A stretch of DNA of 64,000 bases from an uncultured Eubacteriales bacterium. Its GTDB lineage: Bacteria; Bacillota; Clostridia; Christensenellales; Aristaeellaceae. Positions 2,954-46,864 of the stretch are shown piece by piece (positions within the stretch are counted from its first letter, which is position 1; each line of letters starts with the position of its first letter). A program made the translations under genes and the position numbers. A model generated the notes under the pieces. It had not been told where the DNA came from and did not search any database. It was given only the letters and a program-made list of their open reading frames with translations. The stretch spans positions 1 to 64,000 of the forward strand of contig OMYT01000017.1 of NCBI GenBank assembly GCA_900315315.1. The letters are read 5' to 3'.

Positions 2954-3079
2954 AAGAAGGTTTATCTGCCCATCGCGGCGCTGGGCGAAGCTTACGGTCT
3001 GATGTCTTTGGTGCTTGAAGGGGTTGTTCCCCATACGGAAGCCTGTATGAAGGGAGCTCTTTATGAACTTAATAAATGA
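2954..3079 (+). pseudogene. Possible 3' gene remnant overlapping the kinase start
   Basis: In a frame different from both neighbours, about 40 codons read as well-formed protein (including LPIAALGEAYGLMSLVLEG) and end with TGA at 3077-3079, 17 bases inside the histidine kinase gene. There is no start codon with a ribosome site. I read it as the 3' end of a lost gene whose stop once overlapped the kinase start. Low confidence: 40 codons can be open by chance. Confidence 0.3.
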
Positions 3080-5519
3080 AGAAAAGGACATGAATACAAT
3101 TGAAGAATTGGTTGCTACGAACCGTTTGCTGACTGATTTAACAGAAGCAGGAAGCTGGGTGATCGACTATGCACCGGACGGTTCTGTGGCATCTGTACAA
3201 TGGGGCGATGGCTTCCGCAGACTGATGGGTTATAAAGACTGGCATGATTTTCCGAATGAGTTGGAATCCTTCGTGCAGGGGATTCATCCGGAAGACAGGA
3301 AAGCTTTTGTTGAAGGGATTACTACCAATGTTTTTGATGAAAGCATCATGAGAACAGCGGGATATGATTTCCGCTTTTTCAAAAAGGACGGTTCTATCCG
3401 GTGGCTTCGCAGCAAGGGGATGCTGAGTCGGGATTCCGAAGGCAGACCGTTACAGTACAGAGGCGTGACGATTGATATCACCAAGGAGAAGGAGCACGAT
3501 GCTCTGTACGTCGAACTGCAGAACGAAGCAGCGTCTCTCAACACCATTCATGAAATGCTCGGATCCGGCAAATGGACAATGGATTTTGATGAAACCGGTG
3601 CGATGGTCCGGGTAACCTGGAGCGATGAATTTCGAAGAATGATCGGGTATCATGGCATGGATGACTTTCCGGATGTACTGGAATCCTGGTCCGACCTGCT
3701 ACATCCTGATGACAGGGAGCGTGTACTGAAGGAGTATAATGAAACGATCTCCGACTATACCGGGCAAAAGACCTATGATGTGGAGTACCGTCTGCGGACA
3801 AAAAACAGAGGATATCGCTGGTATCGGGCTGTTGGCAAACCCACTCGCCGTCCCGATGGTTCTCCTATCACCTACATAGGTGTTTTCATGGACATCACAG
3901 AACAAAAGAAAATGATGCAGGAACTGGCAGAACAGCGTGAATCGCTGAGCGTTGCGCTGGAAGACGCCAATCAGGCCAATAAGGCGAAAACAGCTTTCCT
4001 GTCAAACATGAGCCATGAAATCCGCACACCTATGAACGCGATCATCGGTCTGGACCGAATTGCATTGAATGATCCCGGCATTTCTGAAGCGACACGGGAG
4101 CATCTTGAGAAGATCGGGCTGTCGGCGCAGCATCTGCTTAGCATTATCAACGACATTCTTGATATGAACCGCATCGAGTCCGGGCGTATGACCGTGAACA
4201 ATGAAGAGTTTTCTTTTGCGAAGCTGCTGTCCCAGGTCAATACGATGATAAGCGGCCAGTGCAGAGAAAAGGGCCTTGAGTATGTGTGCCGTGTGAATGG
4301 CTCGGTCGGCGATTATTATATCGGTGACGATATGAAGCTACGAGAGGTTTTGATCAATATTCTTGGGAATGCAGTCAAGTTTACACCATCAGGCGGAACT
4401 GTCACATTTATTGTGGAATCAACCGCACGATTCAATGGAAAATCCACTTTGCGCTTTATCATCAGCGATACGGGCATTGGGATGAGTCAGGAGTATCTTC
4501 CGAAGCTGTTTGATGCGTTCAGCCAGGAGGACTCATCCAGAACAAGCCGCTTTGGAAGCACAGGTCTGGGAATGGCCATCACCAGGAGTCTGGTTGAACT
4601 GATGAACGGCACGATTTCAGTGGAGAGCGAAAAGCATAAAGGAACGACGTTTACCGTTATGGTTACACTGATCGACAGCGATCGCAAAAGCGCCGGGGAA
4701 GAAGAAAATGATCTGGATCCCCAGGAACTGTGCGTGCTGGTGATTGATGACGATCCGATCGCCTGTGAACATGCACAGCTTGTGCTGGGGCAGGTTGGCG
4801 TGAACTGTGAAAAAGCGTTCTCCGGGGCGGAAGGCTTGCAGATGGCGGAAGTGCGCTATGCCAGGAGGGAACCCTATAACCTGATTCTGGTGGATTGGCG
4901 CATGCCTGACATGGACGGTGTGGAGACGACACGCCGAATCCGGGATGCCGTGGGGGATGAAACGCCGGTAATTATACTCACCTCATATAATTGGGATGAT
5001 ATTGAGGAGGAAGCTAGGGCGGCAGGAGTTGATACATTTGTTGCGAAACCGCTCTTTGCCGGGGCGGTGCTGGATGAATTCAGGGAAGCTTTCAAAAAGA
5101 AAAAAACGGAGCTTGTCCGGGAAACGGCAGAGCTGAAAGGGCGCAGAGTGCTTCTGGCGGAAGATGTCACGGTAAACGCCGAAATCATGATGATGGTGCT
5201 TTCCATGCGGGAGATTCGGGCCGACCATGCGGAAAACGGGCGCATTGCTTTGGAAATGTTTGAGGAACACGAAGAAGGCTATTATGATGCGATTCTGATG
5301 GATATGCGGATGCCGGAGATGGATGGACTGGAGGCGACCCGGAGAATCAGGGCTGCTGACAAATCTGATGCAAAGAAAATTCCTATCATAGCGTTAACGG
5401 CAAACGCTTTTGATGAGGATGTTCAGCAAAGCATGCAGGCCGGTTTAAATGCCCATCTTTCCAAGCCTGTGGAGCCGGAAACGCTGTTTAAGACGCTGGA
5501 AGAACTGATAAAGCCCTGA
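3063..5519 (+). CDS. Hybrid sensor histidine kinase: PAS-PAS-HisKA-HATPase-REC-REC
   Basis: Two PAS domains (about residues 25-145 and 155-285, each with a PAC-like end such as YRGVTIDIT and YIGVFMDIT) precede a HisKA domain with the phospho-acceptor in FLSNMSHEIRTPMNAIIG (His318). The ATP-binding domain follows (residues 370-535; N box LREVLINILGNAVKFTP, G boxes DTGIGM and STGLGM). Two receiver domains complete the protein: the first has VIDDD, phospho-acceptor Asp in VDWRMPDMDG and Lys in VAKPL; the second has LAEDV, LMDMRMPEMDG and LSKPVEP. No membrane segment is present, so sensing is cytoplasmic. No partner regulator with an output domain lies nearby. GGGAG before ATG 3063 supports the start. 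The next gene is an exported solute-binding-type protein. Confidence 0.95.
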   Translation: MNLINEEKDMNTIEELVATNRLLTDLTEAGSWVIDYAPDGSVASVQWGDGFRRLMGYKDWHDFPNELESFVQGIHPEDRKAFVEGITTNVFDESIMRTAGYDFRFFKKDGSIRWLRSKGMLSRDSEGRPLQYRGVTIDITKEKEHDALYVELQNEAASLNTIHEMLGSGKWTMDFDETGAMVRVTWSDEFRRMIGYHGMDDFPDVLESWSDLLHPDDRERVLKEYNETISDYTGQKTYDVEYRLRTKNRGYRWYRAVGKPTRRPDGSPITYIGVFMDITEQKKMMQELAEQRESLSVALEDANQANKAKTAFLSNMSHEIRTPMNAIIGLDRIALNDPGISEATREHLEKIGLSAQHLLSIINDILDMNRIESGRMTVNNEEFSFAKLLSQVNTMISGQCREKGLEYVCRVNGSVGDYYIGDDMKLREVLINILGNAVKFTPSGGTVTFIVESTARFNGKSTLRFIISDTGIGMSQEYLPKLFDAFSQEDSSRTSRFGSTGLGMAITRSLVELMNGTISVESEKHKGTTFTVMVTLIDSDRKSAGEEENDLDPQELCVLVIDDDPIACEHAQLVLGQVGVNCEKAFSGAEGLQMAEVRYARREPYNLILVDWRMPDMDGVETTRRIRDAVGDETPVIILTSYNWDDIEEEARAAGVDTFVAKPLFAGAVLDEFREAFKKKKTELVRETAELKGRRVLLAEDVTVNAEIMMMVLSMREIRADHAENGRIALEMFEEHEEGYYDAILMDMRMPEMDGLEATRRIRAADKSDAKKIPIIALTANAFDEDVQQSMQAGLNAHLSKPVEPETLFKTLEELIKP

Positions 5520-6703: not shown

Positions 6704-6934
6704 ATGGCCATGCCTTTTGAGCCTGAAGAGATTGATGATCTGGATGATTCCCTGCTGGATACGATGGATCAGGAGGAAATGGTGGATTTCCGGGATCAGC
6801 TCCAGGAAACACTGGATCAGATGATGACCTGGGAACCGGATCCGGACAGGAATGAGGACGCATATTACGAGTGGCAGGACCGGGTCAATGTTCTGCAGGA
6901 TCTGATTGACGTGATTGATATGCGGACGGAGTGA
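6704..6934 (+). CDS. Small acidic protein, 76 aa, founder of a local family
   Basis: Starts MAMPFEPEEIDD and is strongly acidic; residues 31-76 are predicted helix (LQETLDQMM, EPDPD, YYEWQDRVNVLQDLID). AGGAGG-like GGAGGATATGCTGT supports ATG 6704. The same sequence family appears four more times in the window: as an N-terminal fragment (11300), an internally deleted copy (12167), a 13-codon 3' remnant (25557) and as the last 46 residues of L-serine dehydratase (18178-18318; about 27 of 46 positions identical by eye). No function is known to me. Its repeated appearance at gene borders suggests a gene that is easily duplicated or fused. Confidence 0.8.
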   Translation: MAMPFEPEEIDDLDDSLLDTMDQEEMVDFRDQLQETLDQMMTWEPDPDRNEDAYYEWQDRVNVLQDLIDVIDMRTE

Positions 6935-6950
6935 GGATAACCAAAACGGT

Positions 6951-8035
6951 ATGAGCAGCTTGAAGTTTGTATTTGTCCACGGCCTGTCCGGATGGGGCAG
7001 TTATGATAAGGCATACCGCAGGCTGCCCTATTGGGGTATGCGCGGCGGGGACCTGATGGGCTTTCTCAGGGTAAAGGGCTTCGATTGTTATCGGCCTCTG
7101 TTTCCCCGACCGGAAGCGCCTGGGACCGTGCCTGTGAACTGTATGCCCAGCTGGCCGGCAAACGGACGGATTACGGTAAAGCTCACAGCGGCATATACCG
7201 GCATGACCGGTATGGCCGCGATTTTTCCTCCTGCCCGCTGATTGCCGACTGGAATGATGATACCCGTCTGGTGCTGCTGGGGCATTCCTTTGGCGGAGCA
7301 ACGGTCCGAGTGTTTTCCGACCTGATGGCCCATGGGGATGAGGAAGAACGCGGGTCCGCCGATCCGGATGATCTATCTCCGCTTTTCGCTGGAGGAATGG
7401 AACAACGTGTCCATAGCATTGTGACGCTGGCTTCCCCGATGAACGGCGCTACAGCTTATGATCTTCATGAGGATCCGGGCTTTGATCCGGCCGGTGTCAA
7501 GGTGCCGCAGTGGAGTAAATACTGGGCGAGTGTGATGTCCAGAGGCGCAAGATCCAGGGAAGACGGGCGTGACATCCGGGATTATGCTGCTTATGATATG
7601 CATTTGGACCGGGCAAGGGAAATGAATGAACAAATCAGTACCTTGCCGGGGGTATATTATTTTTCTGTGCCATGCCGGGCTACGGAAAAATCCCCGGACG
7701 GAACCTGCCGGCCCGGTCGGGGAATGGAACCATTGTTTTATGCGCGGAGTTGCCAGATCGGCGCATACACCGGAAAGACCGCCGGCGGTATTGAGATTGA
7801 TGAACGCTGGCGGGATAACGACGGGCTTGTTAATACGATTTCCGCCATGGCTCCGGACGGTGCGCCTGCGAAACCGATGGATCGGGAACAGGTCCAACAT
7901 GGCATGTGGAATGTTTTTCCGGTGCTGAACGGAGATCATATGTGGCTGCAGGGCGGCCTTATGCATAAGCATGATGTTCGGCCGTTTTACCTGGACCTGC
8001 TGACGATGATCAGCGGACTGCCGATAAAGCGTTGA
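6951..8035 (+). pseudogene. Lipase-like alpha/beta hydrolase with a 1-base frameshift
   Basis: The first frame reads LKFVFVHGLSGWGSYD, LPYWGM, LRVKGFDCY and breaks at about base 7091; the next frame continues at ASVSPTGSAWDRACELYAQL with no gap in sense, so one base has been lost. The second part has the nucleophile elbow GHSFGGATVR, a catalytic-Asp/His-like end (NGDHMW) and a DYG..HS block typical of staphylococcal/Bacillus family I.5-I.6 triacylglycerol lipases. No signal peptide. It may be a true pseudogene or a sequence error; restoring one base in 7089-7093 yields about 361 residues. It starts 16 bases after the small acidic protein gene. Confidence 0.8.
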
Positions 8036-10110: not shown

Positions 10111-10776
10111 ATGGAGAAGAACTATATTCCGAACATCCAGAGTTCGCTGCGGCATCATATTCTGAAGATGCCGGAAGCCTGCTATTCTGCCAGCGGGATC
10201 ATCGTGAACGGCAGGCGGATCAAGACCTTTGTTTTTACGACCGATCTGGCAATCATCCGGAACTGTGACGCGGATGCCGTGTTCGCGGTTTATCCCTTTA
10301 CGCCGCAGCAGGCGATCAGCGATGCCGTTATCAAGGCTTCCTATATCCCGGTTTTCTGCGGCGTCGGCGGGGGAACGACGAGGGGATTGAGGACGATTGC
10401 GCTGGCCAAGGATGTGGAATGCCAGGGCGCGATGGGCGTAATTCTGAACGCGCCGATCAACAATCTGAATCTGGCTGCCGTGGCCGCCGCGGTGGACATC
10501 CCGGTGATCATTACCGTGACGCAGGAGAGCACGGATATTTCAGCCCGGCTGGCCGCGGGCGCCTCTGTTCTGAATGTGGCCTGCGGAGGAAAGACACCGG
10601 AGGTTGTGGCAAAGATCCGGCAAAGCTTCCCGGAGATTCCGCTGATTGCCAGCGGGGGGAATACGGAAGAGAACATCGCCAGGACCATTGAGGCCGGAGC
10701 CAATGCGATTACGTTTACGCCCCCATCCACAGCGGAGCTATTCAAGGAAATGATGGAAAAGTACCGGGAAGAATGA
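10111..10776 (+). CDS. TIM-barrel phosphate-binding protein (aldolase/ThiE-like fold)
   Basis: 221 residues. The C-terminal half has a typical phosphate-binding barrel end: IPLIASGGNTEENIARTIEAGANAITFTPP, as in KDPG aldolase, ThiE and related barrels. Earlier strands include DADAVFAVYPF, IPVFCGVGGG and CQGAMGVILNAP. In databases such proteins are usually called hydrolase or dihydroorotate-dehydrogenase-like without an assigned reaction. Start has AAAGGTG upstream. It is 25 bases after the DUF6465 gene and 38 bases before msrC, so the three may form one transcript. Fold call is firm; reaction is not known. Confidence 0.7.
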   Translation: MEKNYIPNIQSSLRHHILKMPEACYSASGIIVNGRRIKTFVFTTDLAIIRNCDADAVFAVYPFTPQQAISDAVIKASYIPVFCGVGGGTTRGLRTIALAKDVECQGAMGVILNAPINNLNLAAVAAAVDIPVIITVTQESTDISARLAAGASVLNVACGGKTPEVVAKIRQSFPEIPLIASGGNTEENIARTIEAGANAITFTPPSTAELFKEMMEKYREE

Positions 10777-10814
10777 TGATCCGGACAAGAAAGAGGATGC
10801 GTAAGTGGCAAATG

Positions 10815-11273
10815 ATGAAGTATGAATTACTGTTTGAACAGGCAAAGGGTATTCTGGAGGTGGAACCTTGGTATGTGTCCGCACTGAGTAATATTTCTTC
10901 GCTGATCATGACCACGCTGTCGGATCTGAACTGGGCAGGGTTTTATCTGTTCAGAAACGGAGAACTAACTGTAGGACCGTTCCAGGGGAAACCGGCCTGT
11001 ATCCATATTACCCCGGGCAAGGGTGTGTGCGGAACCGCGGTTGCCCGGGATGAGACCGTCGTGGTTCCGGATGTGCATCAGTTCCCGGGTCATATTGCCT
11101 GCGATGGTGCTTCGGAATCCGAAATCGTAATCCCAATTCATGCGGGCGGGCAGGTTATGGCTGTATTGGACATCGACAGTCCGGTGAAGAACCGCTTCAG
11201 CACGGAAGATCAGGTGGGGCTGGAGGCGCTTGTACGGCTGATTGAAGAGAAGATGAACTGGGCGGAGCGCTGA
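10815..11273 (+). CDS. msrC: Free methionine-(R)-sulfoxide reductase (GAF domain)
   Basis: Single GAF domain of the fRMsr family. All signature segments are present: LNWAGFYLF, VGPFQGKPACIHI, GKGVCGTA, DVHQFPGHIACD, SESEIVIPI and VLDIDSP. The three conserved cysteines (PAC, GVCG, IACD) are intact, so it should reduce free L-methionine-R-sulfoxide with thioredoxin and help repair oxidative damage in the cytoplasm. ATG 10812 or 10815 (MKYELLFEQ) is the likely start, although no strong ribosome site is close; an in-frame ATG at 10797 sits directly on an AGAGG. About 152 residues, normal for the family. Confidence 0.9.
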   Translation: MKYELLFEQAKGILEVEPWYVSALSNISSLIMTTLSDLNWAGFYLFRNGELTVGPFQGKPACIHITPGKGVCGTAVARDETVVVPDVHQFPGHIACDGASESEIVIPIHAGGQVMAVLDIDSPVKNRFSTEDQVGLEALVRLIEEKMNWAER

Positions 11274-11299: not shown

Positions 11300-11374
11300 G
11301 TGTCAATGCCTTTCGAACCTGATGGGGTCGATGATCCGGACGAATCCCTGCCGGAAACGATGGATCAGGAGGAA
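11300..11374 (+). pseudogene. N-terminal fragment of the small acidic protein family
   Basis: GTG 11300 opens a frame reading SMPFEPDGVDDPDESLPETM DQEE, clearly related to the first 25 residues of the protein at 6704. AAAGGCGG precedes it. Homology ends exactly at base 11374, where the convergent serine hydrolase remnant begins; after this the frame is unrelated sequence. The junction shows that a deletion or insertion cut this copy. Confidence 0.7.
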
Positions 11375-11950
11375 TTACTTTGCGAGCCTGTTCGTCAGTT
11401 CCTCTGCAAAAAGAGCATATTCTTTTTTTTCCGTTTCTTCCGCCCAGGCCTTCAGAACGGCGATCTTGCTCCGTGCGTTTTTGACGGAGGGATGATCCGA
11501 ACCCGCATCTTCCGGGATCAGCTTCAGGCTTTCCGCGGCCATATCCGCCAGCAGATCCATCAGCTGGGCGGAAATATCCGCCTGCTCATCCAGGCCGATG
11601 GACAGGATCTGCGGAACAAAACCCAGGGAGGAAGCGGTATAGGCATTTCCGTCAAACTTATTCTGGTTACTCCCGTCAGTCACGGGAGAATTGATTTAGT
11701 TGGTCAGATAAACGATCACCAGATCGCGGGAAGCATCCACCATTGCCAGGGTGTTATCGGGATAGCCTTTCCAATCCGGGAACACGGCTGTTTTCTGCCA
11801 TTCCCGGGCCGGAATTTCGCTCACCCGGAGAACGGACATCACGGGTTTTTCAGTTTCTGCGGCACAGCTGGAAACAAATCCGGCTGTCAGGAGCACGGAG
11901 ATCAATACAGACAGCAGTCTTCTGATTATGGTCACATGTCTTTCAGTCAT
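11375..11950 (-). pseudogene. Serine hydrolase (beta-lactamase-related) remnant: internal deletion plus stop codon
   Basis: Minus strand: ATG 11950 with GAGAGGG upstream starts a lipoprotein-type signal peptide (LLTAGFVSSCAAE), followed directly by the C-terminal part of a class C beta-lactamase-like serine hydrolase (TLAMVDASRDLVIVYLTN, then NSPVTDGSNQNKFDG). The central catalytic domain with the S-x-x-K and Y-x-N motifs is missing, so roughly 200 residues have been deleted. In addition TAA at 11696-11698 interrupts the frame between LTN and INSPV in the same frame, where homologues would have Lys. The gene is dead as an enzyme. Confidence 0.75.
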
Positions 11951-12100
11951 AATCCCTCTCATCCCACAGGTCTCCCTTCGCCGCGCGAGTTGTGTTTGCA
12001 AAACAGAATATTCTCTGCTGATTCAGACTGTTCCTGCCGGGAACGGAGTTGATCCGTGAGCGTGTTTATTTTTTTGCAGGAATGATATGGGTGGTTTTGC

Positions 12101-12129
12101 TTGCACGGATGCAAAAAAGATGGTATTTT
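12101..12129 (+). promoter_or_regulatory. TTGC-class promoter (TTGCAC-17-TATTTT)
   Basis: TTGCAC 12101-12106, 17-base spacer ending AAAAAAGATGG, TATTTT 12124-12129. The same plan (TTGC, 17 bases ending in TGG or TGC, TATWTT) recurs at 16853, 29022 (minus), 43008, 46798 and 53235. It transcribes the short ORF at 12167 and the nucleotidase. Confidence 0.7.
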
Positions 12130-12166
12130 GTGAGCATAAGAAATCATTTATATGGGGGTAAGGCGT

Positions 12167-12268
12167 ATGGCCATGCCTTTCGATCCGGAAGACGCGTATT
12201 ACGAGTGGCAGAACCGGATCAATGTGCTGCAGGATCTGATAGATGCGAGTGATTTGCAGATGGGTTGA
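12167..12268 (+). pseudogene. Internally deleted copy of the small acidic protein, 33 codons
   Basis: ATG 12167 reads MAMPFDPED, then jumps to AYYEWQNRINVLQDLIDAS, i.e. the two ends of the protein at 6704 fused in frame with about 43 residues missing. GGGGGTAAGG lies upstream and the ORF keeps a stop codon, so it may still be translated. It lies between the TTGC-class promoter and the nucleotidase gene and would act as a short upstream ORF. Confidence 0.75.
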
Positions 12269-16726: not shown

Positions 16727-16852
16727 GTTGATCTTCCTTTCAGTATTTTTAGGGTTCCGGTATGTATGACGAAAAAAACGCTTCCGGAGTTCCCGACATC
16801 TTTTTTTCAGTGTATATGATGCAGAGGGGGGAGGCAAGGAAATGTTTTTTCG

Positions 16853-16881
16853 TTGCAGAAGGGAAGAGAAAATGGTATATT
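16853..16881 (+). promoter_or_regulatory. TTGC-class promoter (TTGCAG-17-TATATT)
   Basis: TTGCAG 16853-16858, 17-base spacer ending GAAAATGG, TATATT 16876-16881. It precedes sdaA. Between it and the gene, 16935-16950 carries GACTAACACGTAAAAA, nearly identical to 1378-1392 before the exported protein at 1407. Confidence 0.7.
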
Positions 16882-16962
16882 CTGAGTCAGAGAAAGTGTT
16901 TTACAGAAAGCCGGATTAAATACCGGAAGGGACGGACTAACACGTAAAAAGGAGTGATTCAC

Positions 16963-18318
16963 ATGAAAAGTATTCGCAGTGTTTATAAGATCGGGCACGG
17001 GCCTTCCAGCTCCCATACGGTTGGCCCGTATAACGCGGCTGTGCGCTTTGGCAAGAGGCATCCGGATGCGGACAGATTCTGTGTCACGCTGTATGGCTCT
17101 CTTGCTTTTACGGGAGCGGGGCACGGCACCGGAAAGGCGATTCTGTCCGGATTGCCGGGCGCGGAGATCATTGTAGACACGGAGGAAACGGATCTTCCGC
17201 ACCCGAATACTATGCTGTTTACGGCCTACAAAGACGGGCGGGTGCTTGAAAGCGTCCGCGTGTTTTCCGTGGGCGGCGGTTCGATTCGGTTTGAAAATGA
17301 GCCGGATGATGAAGAGCGGGAGATTTATCCCGAGAAAAATTTTGAGGAGATCATGGAGGCCTGCAGACGGGAGAACATGACACTCAAGGACTGGATCCGG
17401 AAACGGGAAGGAGACGGTCTCCGGGAGTATTTATCCACTGTATGGCAGGCTATGCAGGCCGCGATTGAACGCGGGATCCGGGCGGAGGGAATCCTTCCCG
17501 GCGGGCTGGAGGTGGACCGGAAGTCAAAGATCCTTTATGAAAAGCGCTGCTATAACGAAAGTGCGGATGTGACCATGAACCGGGTGATTGCCGCGTATGC
17601 CTATGCTGTCAGCGAGGAAAATGCCAGTGAGAATATTGTTGTAACCGCCCCGACCTGCGGCAGCTGCGGGGTGATTCCGGCGGTGTTCTATTATATGCAG
17701 AAGGACCGCGGGTTTCCGGAGGAAGAGATCCTGGACGCCCTGGCCGTGGCGGCGATGATCGGGAATGTCATCAGGACGAATGCCAGCATCTCCGGCGCTG
17801 AGTGCGGATGCCAGGCGGAAATCGGCAGCGCGTGCTCCATGGCTGCGGCGGGGCTGGCCGCGCTGTACCGGCTGAACCTGGAACAGATTGAGTATGCCGC
17901 GGAGATCGCGATGGAGCATCATCTGGGCCTGACCTGTGACCCGGTGGGCGGCCTGGTTCAGATTCCCTGTATAGAGCGCAACGCAGTGGCTGCCATGCGC
18001 GCCATTTCCGCGGTGAATCTTTCCCGGTTCCTGTATGAAACCCGCAAAATATCTTTTGATGTGGTCGTTAATACCATGTATCAGACGGGGAAGGATATGA
18101 ATGATAAATACCGGGAGACCTCCCACGGCGGATTGGCGGAGATGTATCGTTTCCTTGGCGATGTGTTCGATTCCCGTTCCTGGCTCCAGGAAACCCTGGA
18201 CGAGATGATGGCCGAGGAGCCGGATCCGGACGGGGAAGAGGCCGCGTATGACGAATGGGAAGAACGGGTTCATGAACTGCAGGAGATGATCGACGCGATT
18301 GATTCGCAGACGGATTGA
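16963..18318 (+). CDS. sdaA: L-serine dehydratase (iron-sulfur, single chain) with an added acidic tail
   Basis: Single-chain enzyme with beta domain first (SVYKIGHGPSSSHTVGPYNAA, VTLYGSLAFTGAGHGT) and alpha domain after residue 140. Cluster and catalytic segments are intact: APTCGSCGVIPAV, SGAECGCQAEIGSACSMAAAGL and LTCDPVGGLVQIPCIERN. It deaminates L-serine to pyruvate and ammonia using a [4Fe-4S] cluster. The enzyme proper ends at KYRETSHGGLAE (about residue 392), where homologues stop. Residues 406-451 are instead homologous to the last 46 residues of the small acidic protein at 6704. AAAAGGAG before ATG 16963 supports the start. Confidence 0.93.
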   Translation: MKSIRSVYKIGHGPSSSHTVGPYNAAVRFGKRHPDADRFCVTLYGSLAFTGAGHGTGKAILSGLPGAEIIVDTEETDLPHPNTMLFTAYKDGRVLESVRVFSVGGGSIRFENEPDDEEREIYPEKNFEEIMEACRRENMTLKDWIRKREGDGLREYLSTVWQAMQAAIERGIRAEGILPGGLEVDRKSKILYEKRCYNESADVTMNRVIAAYAYAVSEENASENIVVTAPTCGSCGVIPAVFYYMQKDRGFPEEEILDALAVAAMIGNVIRTNASISGAECGCQAEIGSACSMAAAGLAALYRLNLEQIEYAAEIAMEHHLGLTCDPVGGLVQIPCIERNAVAAMRAISAVNLSRFLYETRKISFDVVVNTMYQTGKDMNDKYRETSHGGLAEMYRFLGDVFDSRSWLQETLDEMMAEEPDPDGEEAAYDEWEERVHELQEMIDAIDSQTD

Positions 18319-24604: not shown

Positions 24605-24675
24605 CATATTGAAAGATAACGGATGACGTGTATTCTTTCAATAATGCTGTTCAGTTGTGAAAGGAGAACAAAAAA

Positions 24676-25269
24676 ATGGCTGACAAAAAGATCGCGGCAA
24701 AGAATTTTTTCCCTCCTGTGCCCGGCTGGGACTGGAACAAAGGCGTCCAGAAGAAGCAGTGGAAAAAATTCAAATTTGGCATGGGCAAGCTCTGGGATCA
24801 GTACCAGGATATGCAGAAGGTCGCCAGGAAAGCCTGGAAAGCGCAGTGGGAGACTTTCTTTGCACAACTTATGGACATGCAGCAGACCGTTGCAGATGCC
24901 CTTCCGGATGAAAAGGCCGCTGTACCCGGGATGCCTCCCGTTCCCGTGTCACCGAAGGAATTCATAGAAAAGGCGAAGGAATTCCAGGAGAAAGCCAATG
25001 CACACGCCGTGGAGCAGGCTGATGTTGTATTTGAAATCCAGATTCAGACGCAGCAGCAGGTGAAAGATACGGTTTCGGATGTCGTTGAAAATGTCGAAGC
25101 CAACCTGGATGCGATTCAACCCGTTGCGGAAGAAGCGGAAGAAAAAGCGGAAGTAAAAGCGGAAGAGAAACCGGCCCAGAAACCGGCGCAGAAGAAACCT
25201 GCCCAGAAAAAGCCCGCCCAGAAAAAGCCGGCTCAGAAGAAACCGGCACAGAAACCGGCCGGGAAATGA
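24676..25269 (+). CDS. Phasin-like helical protein with Lys/Ala/Pro-rich tail (paralogue A)
   Basis: 197 residues. N-terminal amphipathic region rich in Trp, Met and Gln (MGKLWDQYQDMQKVARKAWK, FFAQLMDMQQTVADALPDE), a Pro/Gly/Met hinge (AAVPGMPPVPVSPKEF), a long helix (residues 95-160) and a tail of repeated PAQKK units (residues 160-197). This plan recalls phasins (granule-coating proteins with KPAAKK tails) and bacterial H1-like proteins. No polyhydroxyalkanoate genes are in the window. A second copy with the same plan is at 36162. AAAGGAG precedes ATG 24676. The repeat tail is coding, not a separate repeat array. Confidence 0.8.
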   Translation: MADKKIAAKNFFPPVPGWDWNKGVQKKQWKKFKFGMGKLWDQYQDMQKVARKAWKAQWETFFAQLMDMQQTVADALPDEKAAVPGMPPVPVSPKEFIEKAKEFQEKANAHAVEQADVVFEIQIQTQQQVKDTVSDVVENVEANLDAIQPVAEEAEEKAEVKAEEKPAQKPAQKKPAQKKPAQKKPAQKKPAQKPAGK

Positions 25270-36026: not shown

Positions 36027-36161
36027 AAACTTGCAGGAAATGAAAAGAATGAATGATCTGTATGAAAGGAACGGAAAAAGGAGTCTGATTGGCAGCGACG
36101 ATCTCGGAGCCGACCATTCAAACAATAGATCTATTTTTTGAATTTGAAAGGAGAAACAAAA

Positions 36162-36932
36162 ATGGCGAACAAAAAGAACAATGCGAAGGATTTCTTCTCT
36201 TCCATGCCTTTCTGGGGTTGGGCCGATGACAGCGGCAAGGACCAGTGGGAAGAATTCAAATCTGGTATGGAGAAGCTCTGGAAACAGCAGCAGGAAATGC
36301 AGAAGGCCGCAGAGAAAGCTTGGAAAGAGCAGTGGGATACATTCTTCTCCAAACTCATGGAAATGGAGCAAACCGTTGCAGACGCGCTGCCGGATGAGAA
36401 GCCCGCTGCACCCGGAATGCCTGCTGCCCCCGTGTCCCCGAAGGAGTTTGTAGAAAAAGCAAAGGAATTCCAGGTAAAGGCTAACGCGCATGTTGTGGAA
36501 CAGGCCGAAAATATGCGTAAAATCCGGACGAAACGGCGCCAGCAGGTGAAAGAGATCGTTACGGATGCCGTTAACAATGTGAAAGCCAATATTGAAGCGG
36601 TTCAACCTGTACCTGTAAAGGAAGAAAAAGCTGAAGAGAAGCCGGAAGTGAAAACGGAAAAGAAACCGGAAAAGAAGCCCGCTCAGAAACAGGCTGCAAA
36701 GTCGAGCAGCAAATCGAAGAGTAAATCCGGCGGAAAATCAAATACAAAAACCGCAGAGAAACCGGCCCAGAAGACAGCCCAGAAAGCGGCTCCGAAGCCC
36801 GCTCAGAAGCCGGCACAAAAACCCGCCTCGAAGCCGGCCCAGAAACCCGCAGAGAAACCGGCTCAGAAGCCCGCAGAGAAGCCCGCGGAGAAACCGGCCG
36901 AAAAGCCCGCAGAGAAACCGGCTGAGAAATAA
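36162..36932 (+). CDS. Phasin-like helical protein with long Lys/Ala/Pro-rich tail (paralogue B)
   Basis: 256 residues. The first 140 align with paralogue A at 24676: GMEKLWKQQQEMQKAAEKAWK, FSKLMEMEQTVADALPDEK, a PGMPAAPVSPKEF hinge and KAKEFQVKANAHVVEQAE. The tail (residues 145-256) is longer than in A: a KSSSKSKSKSGGKS stretch, then PAQK and PAEK units repeated many times. Strongly basic-to-mixed tail resembles histone H1/AlgP or phasin C-termini. AAAGGAG precedes ATG 36162. Strong promoter suggests high expression. Function unknown; granule coat or nucleoid association are the two main ideas. Confidence 0.8.
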   Translation: MANKKNNAKDFFSSMPFWGWADDSGKDQWEEFKSGMEKLWKQQQEMQKAAEKAWKEQWDTFFSKLMEMEQTVADALPDEKPAAPGMPAAPVSPKEFVEKAKEFQVKANAHVVEQAENMRKIRTKRRQQVKEIVTDAVNNVKANIEAVQPVPVKEEKAEEKPEVKTEKKPEKKPAQKQAAKSSSKSKSKSGGKSNTKTAEKPAQKTAQKAAPKPAQKPAQKPASKPAQKPAEKPAQKPAEKPAEKPAEKPAEKPAEK

Positions 36933-36967
36933 TTTTACATCCTGATCAGATCATACTGATTCTGAAT

Positions 36968-42949: not shown

Positions 42950-43007
42950 CGCAAATATAAAAAAACCCGTACATAGGTGTTATTCAGGTTGAAACAGCGG
43001 CTTTTTC

Positions 43008-43036
43008 TTGCATGGAATCGGAAAAGATGGTATTTT
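43008..43036 (+). promoter_or_regulatory. TTGC-class promoter (TTGCAT-17-TATTTT)
   Basis: TTGCAT 43008-43013, 17-base spacer ending AAAAGATGG, TATTTT 43031-43036. Nearly identical in the spacer end to the promoter at 12101. Serves the leader ORF at 43056 and the kinase. Confidence 0.75.
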
Positions 43037-43055
43037 GTCTTCAGCGGATGGCAAC

Positions 43056-46665: not shown

Positions 46666-46797
46666 TCTGGTACCTCCTCATCAGAAACAGGGATTTTCAA
46701 GGTAAACCGGGGTCTGCTCAATGCAGAAAAGACAGTATTATATTATCTTATGCCATATCTTCATGTCAAAATAATCTTCCCGGGGGATTTTTTATAC

Positions 46798-46826
46798 TTG
46801 CGCGGAAATAAAAAAAATGGTACCTT
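46798..46826 (+). promoter_or_regulatory. TTGC-class promoter (TTGCGC-17-TACCTT)
   Basis: TTGCGC 46798-46803, spacer ending AAAAAAATGG, TACCTT 46821-46826. The -10 is weaker than in the other members, but the TGG extension is kept. 39 bases before the DUF6465 gene. Confidence 0.6.
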
Positions 46827-46864
46827 GGTAGCAGAAGAGAAACAGGAATATGGAGGAAGGCAAC

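Follow-up and report, generated by a model that had tools for sequence, protein, structure and literature searches.

The L-serine dehydratase gene (sdaA) of an uncultured Eubacteriales bacterium ends in a tail that is a real homologue of a small acidic protein, and the fusion is genuine. The gene occupies positions 16963..18318 (+) of the window, that is, the whole 64,000-nucleotide stretch that was analysed, and encodes 451 residues; its small relative, which we call the module, exists as a free-standing gene of 76 codons at 6704..6934 (+), recognised by its ORF, by homologues in related genomes, and by an AlphaFold2 model. In the reading that we prefer, to which we assign a probability of about 0.6, the loss of an ancestral stop codon joined sdaA to a module copy, and the tail is now carried as a tolerated passenger.

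The enzyme itself is a short-form, single-chain [4Fe-4S] L-serine dehydratase. It scores 412.9 bits against TIGR00720, above the curated cut-off of 345.1, and contains the Pfam domains SDH_alpha and SDH_beta; the nearest solved structure is PDB 4rqo from L. pneumophila (E = 6e-81). Cysteines C283, C325, and C336, invariant across 21 aligned rows, align with cysteines of 4RQO and are presumably the cluster-binding residues. In family score, domains, and cysteine positions, SdaA thus resembles this type 2 (single-chain) enzyme, whereas its GGLA motif falls at residue 392 rather than 470 and is followed by 59 residues rather than six. The two also differ at their very ends, as the L. pneumophila enzyme binds the fourth iron of its cluster through a C-terminal cysteine, according to PMC12647591, and SdaA has no such residue but ends in DSQTD. 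The TIGR00720 score does not demand a C-terminal cysteine; it is present in 45 of the 99 sdaA C-termini that we read and in one of the 20 from the genus (G012, locus L034). An element around ATGGTATTTTGT, repeated upstream at window positions 12095-12131, 16847-16883, 43002-43038, and 46792-46828, may be a promoter type of the organism.

The tail after GGLA (18139..18315, +) comprises a linker and a hairpin, as modelled by AlphaFold2, and at 59 residues is the longest of the 99 C-termini, which come from 103 loci (four unreadable) and include at most 98 distinct ones, L049 and L027 being one record. Its module-derived part (18163..18315, +) is laid out as helix, EPDPD turn, and helix: the ~51 residues that close SdaA form an ungapped alignment with residues 26-76 of the protein encoded at 6704, and over the 44 positions from LQETLD onwards 27 are identical (E = 6e-13 in a search within the organism's own genome). 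The first-pass annotation had put this identity at 27 of 46 by eye and had also reported similar DNA, and both observations are borne out; the nucleotide identity is 79% over 136 nt (E = 2e-26), and a repeat search of the window pairs the same two places over 155 nt at 75%. Among 200,000 shuffles of 25 tail residues, scored against the 6704 copy with the register fixed, not one did as well. Ten free copies have 19 invariant positions in the overlap, and the tail retains 14 of them. The predicted hairpin, the EPDPD turn, and the Y/D-E-W core are common to both proteins, but SdaA lacks the module's first ~25 residues, the N-terminal FEPEEIDDLD part among them, and the remainder is tethered to an enzyme. 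The accompanying statement that family members stop at GGLAE does not stand, since 19 other C-termini of the genus continue for 5-31 residues past GGLA.

As a free-standing protein, the module is acidic (26 D+E, 4 K+R at 6704), and is predicted by AlphaFold2 (mean pLDDT 90.1) to combine two short helices with a hairpin of two helices (residues 23-42 and 51-75) that turns at EPDPD. A hairpin is likewise predicted in the tail of SdaA (helices 391-417 and 426-450) behind a stretch of low confidence (residues 379-400, pLDDT < 50), with ten-residue blocks at 70-87 across residues 401-450, in a model with nearly no homologous rows covering the tail. The free state is commoner than the fused one: eight other genomes of the genus each carry a single close-type copy (E < 1e-20). 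A module profile matches 49 of 308 family genomes at E <= 0.001, the window's included, and, at E <= 1e-4, two of 390 others from a sample of the whole class. A distant subfamily of the small acidic protein (L148, L149, and L152) lies near an opposing gene, which we take to encode an NAD(P)H-hydrate dehydratase/epimerase; the two are directly convergent in two genomes and have one ORF between them in the third.

The module is an uncharacterised family, and none of the family libraries searched returned a convincing match. The 6704 protein matched nothing in Pfam and nothing among plasmids and phages, and its best NCBIfam match was weak (0.057). Also weak were the matches of 12 module members in Pfam (best single-member E 0.0013, FAM186A/B), of two members in PHROGs (best 0.0074), of the module profile among PDB sequences (best 0.027, P450 BM3), and of the module among PDB folds (best E 2.5).

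With a profile of the C-terminal half, the 308 family genomes gave no further long host frame: apart from the window's, of 456 aa, none exceeds 171 aa; this profile missed the half-length tail of the metagenome-assembled genome (MAG) RUG10998, described below, so short remnants may escape detection. The window's own genome holds a second in-frame fusion, on contig C146. In two other species, loci L022 (1141-1701, G036) and L023 (1171-1698, G002) combine a zinc-ribbon start, recognised by eye, with a weak module relative at the end (E 1.5e-4 and 5.6e-4), possibly a separate natural fusion. Among the weaker matches of the full module profile are a 328-aa frame in G132 and other longer frames.

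Seven module copies or fragments lie in different neighbourhoods of this genome, four of the seven within 12 kb of window sequence. Besides the 6704 gene and the sdaA tail, the window holds an N-terminal stub with module residues 1-26 (11300..11377, +; E 7e-7, 84% over 69 nt), which begins 26 nt 3' of a GAF-domain gene (10773-11273, GAF by Pfam), and an internally deleted copy of 33 aa in which residues ~1-8 are joined to ~51-76 (12167..12268, +; 84% over 76 nt). Contig C117 carries a free copy 162 nt behind an ORF that matches, by eye, the closing part of a Sel1-repeat frame (921 aa) in G003; on C146, a reading frame begins as a Sel1-type protein and runs on, without a frame change, into 26 module residues (51-76); and C181 has a remnant of ~40 nt. 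A short DNA match at C76:2543-2577 was dropped, as it reads by eye as the end of an unrelated HTH-type protein. The 6704 and C117 copies are alike only from ~12 nt before the gene to 3 nt behind it, the 12167 and 6704 copies have ~50 nt of upstream flank in common, and free module genes follow different genes in different relatives. The GAF-gene neighbourhood was considered as the ancestral site, and in G036 the GAF gene does lie 1.1 kb from the free gene; in three of the seven other close-copy genomes, however, more than 1 Mb separates the two, in the other four they lie on different contigs, and this place is therefore not treated as ancestral.

Three further features of this genome were recorded in passing. 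Sel1-repeat proteins are expanded, with 18 matches at E <= 1e-8 as compared with 0-3 in each of the 44 other genomes of the genus (on contigs C97, C165, C181, C191, C196, C146, and others). The lipase-like gene (Lip_C) behind the 6704 copy, at 6915-8035, seems to be split near 7100 between two frames (ORFs 6915-7241 and 7031-8035) by a frameshift or sequencing error. Arrays of 12-nt repeats at window positions 36608-36934 and 25125-25206 adjoin two mutually similar stretches (24672-24971 and 36158-36457, 76%) and apparently encode lysine/proline/alanine-rich protein ends.

Alignment of sdaA from related genomes shows that the tail is not general. A match at E <= 1e-20 was found in 22 of 45 genus genomes, the window's included; besides the window's, 19 C-termini were readable in 18 genomes (G043 twice), and three partial matches gave none. 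The tail is absent from 18 of these 19, which end 5-21 residues after GGLA in sequence unlike the module, as judged by eye. The remaining one, from RUG10998 (G032), has the first 31 tail residues in an ungapped register with the window's, ending QMYQYISQTVEDHPWLESALNHMMTDAPDED and then a stop, which sits at the hairpin turn. None of 200,000 shuffles of 28 of these 31 residues matched the window's tail as well, and against the free copies six (6704) and 51 (C117) of 200,000 did. A residual second half in the DNA 3' of the stop is doubtful: 0.3% of placements match 30 nt equally well, but the gapped score is equalled by 188 of 500 shuffles. The fusion is thus seen in two species, at half length in RUG10998. 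A nucleotide FastTree of 18 sdaA cores (15 from the genus and three others; partial copies and five genus copies that are more distant are omitted) groups the window's gene with that of RUG10998 at a support of 1.000; a protein tree of the same rows does not resolve this grouping. Around sdaA in six relatives, we saw neither the gene order sdaA-module gene nor other genes of window positions 1-26000, save for homologues in G043 of the sensor kinase at 3063-5519.

How old is the fusion? The tail is identical to each of its own genome's two free copies at 27 of 44 residues and to the free copies of seven other species at 25-29 of 44. Because RUG10998 shares the tail, and because by protein the tail is no closer to the free copies of the window's genome than to those of other species, the fusion is probably older than the split between the two species. 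Silent sites give a contrary sign: tail dS, which over 44 codons carries a large error, is 0.445 against the 6704 copy, 0.735 against G027, 0.766 against C117, and 1.419 against G001, and the first of these values lies below the dS of 0.595 between the two sdaA cores. Taken at face value, this would suit a fusion that arose within the window lineage, or gene conversion there at a later time between tail and 6704 copy. Of the "recent fusion" claimed at first, then, the fusion stands by homology and by the existence of the free form, and "recent" is doubtful given the half-tail in RUG10998 and the even protein distances, even though the silent sites of 6704 are closest. As for constraint, the cores of the two species differ with dN 0.063 (dN/dS 0.11) and their tails with dN 0.42-0.63 and dS 0.54-0.82 depending on the cut (dN/dS 0.72-0.78), which indicates that the tail is weakly constrained in one line, if not in both. 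The window's tail against four free copies gives a dN/dS of 0.17-0.50, a value that includes the time before the fusion.

We picture the origin of the tail as follows. In the common ancestor of the window species and RUG10998, sdaA would have lost its stop codon and become joined in frame, most likely by a deletion, to about codon 26 of a small-gene copy lying downstream on the same strand. The part acquired would be the helical hairpin, so that SdaA would end in a flexible linker and an acidic hairpin; the window species would have kept this tail whole, and RUG10998 would retain no more than its first helix. Module duplicates in general would decay and at times fuse to the gene upstream. For the joining step, the C117/C146 pair offers an analogy: a free copy behind a Sel1-like end on one contig and a Sel1 start fused to the module on the other point to a deletion that brought a gene and the module copy behind it together, and we propose the same for sdaA. 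Since this short SdaA lacks the C-terminal cysteine for the fourth iron, its end is free to vary and could bear an addition without touching catalysis. The data show the homology, the tail common to both species, its weak constraint between them, and further broken or fused copies in the genome, and the hairpin is predicted; we infer a single origin, a deletion as the joining event, and no effect on catalysis. The tail is most likely a passive, tolerated passenger. Counted against this explanation are the low dS between tail and 6704, the unresolved protein tree, the lack of the sdaA-module order in relatives, the invariant positions kept by the window's tail and its dN/dS against free copies, the doubtful match behind the RUG10998 stop, and the scarcity of homologous rows for the tail in the AlphaFold2 model. 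C-termini gained by stop loss have been reported (PMC4494051), and those cases resemble ours in the lost stop codon and the gained tail but differ in that the part added to SdaA is an existing protein module and not non-coding sequence.

The tail might instead be a functional add-on, its hairpin binding the free protein's partner or another SdaA chain and so linking serine breakdown to it or regulating that breakdown. The hairpin predicted at moderate confidence, the 14 of 19 invariant positions retained, and the zinc-ribbon proteins L022 and L023, which suggest that the module can be a domain, all favour this, and the dN/dS of 0.17-0.50 against free copies would also fit a useful tail. The dN/dS between species and the truncation in RUG10998, which does without the second helix, speak against an important regulatory or binding role; the module's matches are weak throughout in family libraries and solved structures, and no other long host frame turned up with the C-half profile, which itself missed RUG10998. 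We regard a functional tail as rather improbable, though it comes next in our ranking. If, on the other hand, one free copy had been split by an insertion or rearrangement, the stub at 11300-11377 would be its N-half and the sdaA tail, 6.8 kb on, its C-half. Both are on the same strand and nearly complementary (residues 1-26 and ~26-76), but by our estimate end points this close arise by chance about one time in ten, and RUG10998 has the fusion with no N-half found at E up to 10, so that we hold a split copy to be quite unlikely.

The module had also been called mobile-looking, and it could be a self-spreading coding element that inserts into genes or at their ends. Rickettsia-type palindromic coding elements have a palindrome or strong hairpin in their DNA. 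The seven copies and fragments in varied neighbourhoods (one fused to another gene), the limits of 6704/C117 similarity, and the varied genes preceding free copies in relatives bear out the description to that extent. No inverted repeats of at least 12 nt were found around five copies examined (those other than C146 and C181), however, and the RNA fold of the 6704 gene is like that of shuffles (z 0.34). Neighbouring window genes scanned with Pfam, some of which have no family, include no transposase, and there is no plasmid or phage match; the upstream flank that the 12167 copy shares with 6704 is as expected of ordinary duplication, and close-type copies are single in eight relatives. That the hairpin gene is a self-dispersing unit, moving with little beyond its ribosome-binding site, settling behind other genes, and repeatedly becoming their C-terminal domain, is in our view very unlikely; if true, host proteins of this lineage would acquire a common protein-binding tail. 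An assembly artefact deserves consideration in a metagenome-derived genome of 197 contigs (89% complete, 3.8% contaminated), but it is scarcely credible here: the separately published RUG10998 has the same junction, and at 22-37% of its bases the tail is unlike the nine free copies with which it was compared, and so is no chimaera of them.

Stop loss followed by toleration of the joined module thus remains our reading. The locus shows the gain of a domain whose own family is uncharacterised, and is not a new kind of system. The SdaA group to which it belongs is mostly without the C-terminal cysteine found in better-known enzymes, and the end of the protein varies freely; against that background, the free gene, the stub, the deleted mini-gene, the two in-frame fusions, and the half-length version make this a readable case of an enzyme gaining a C-terminal domain.
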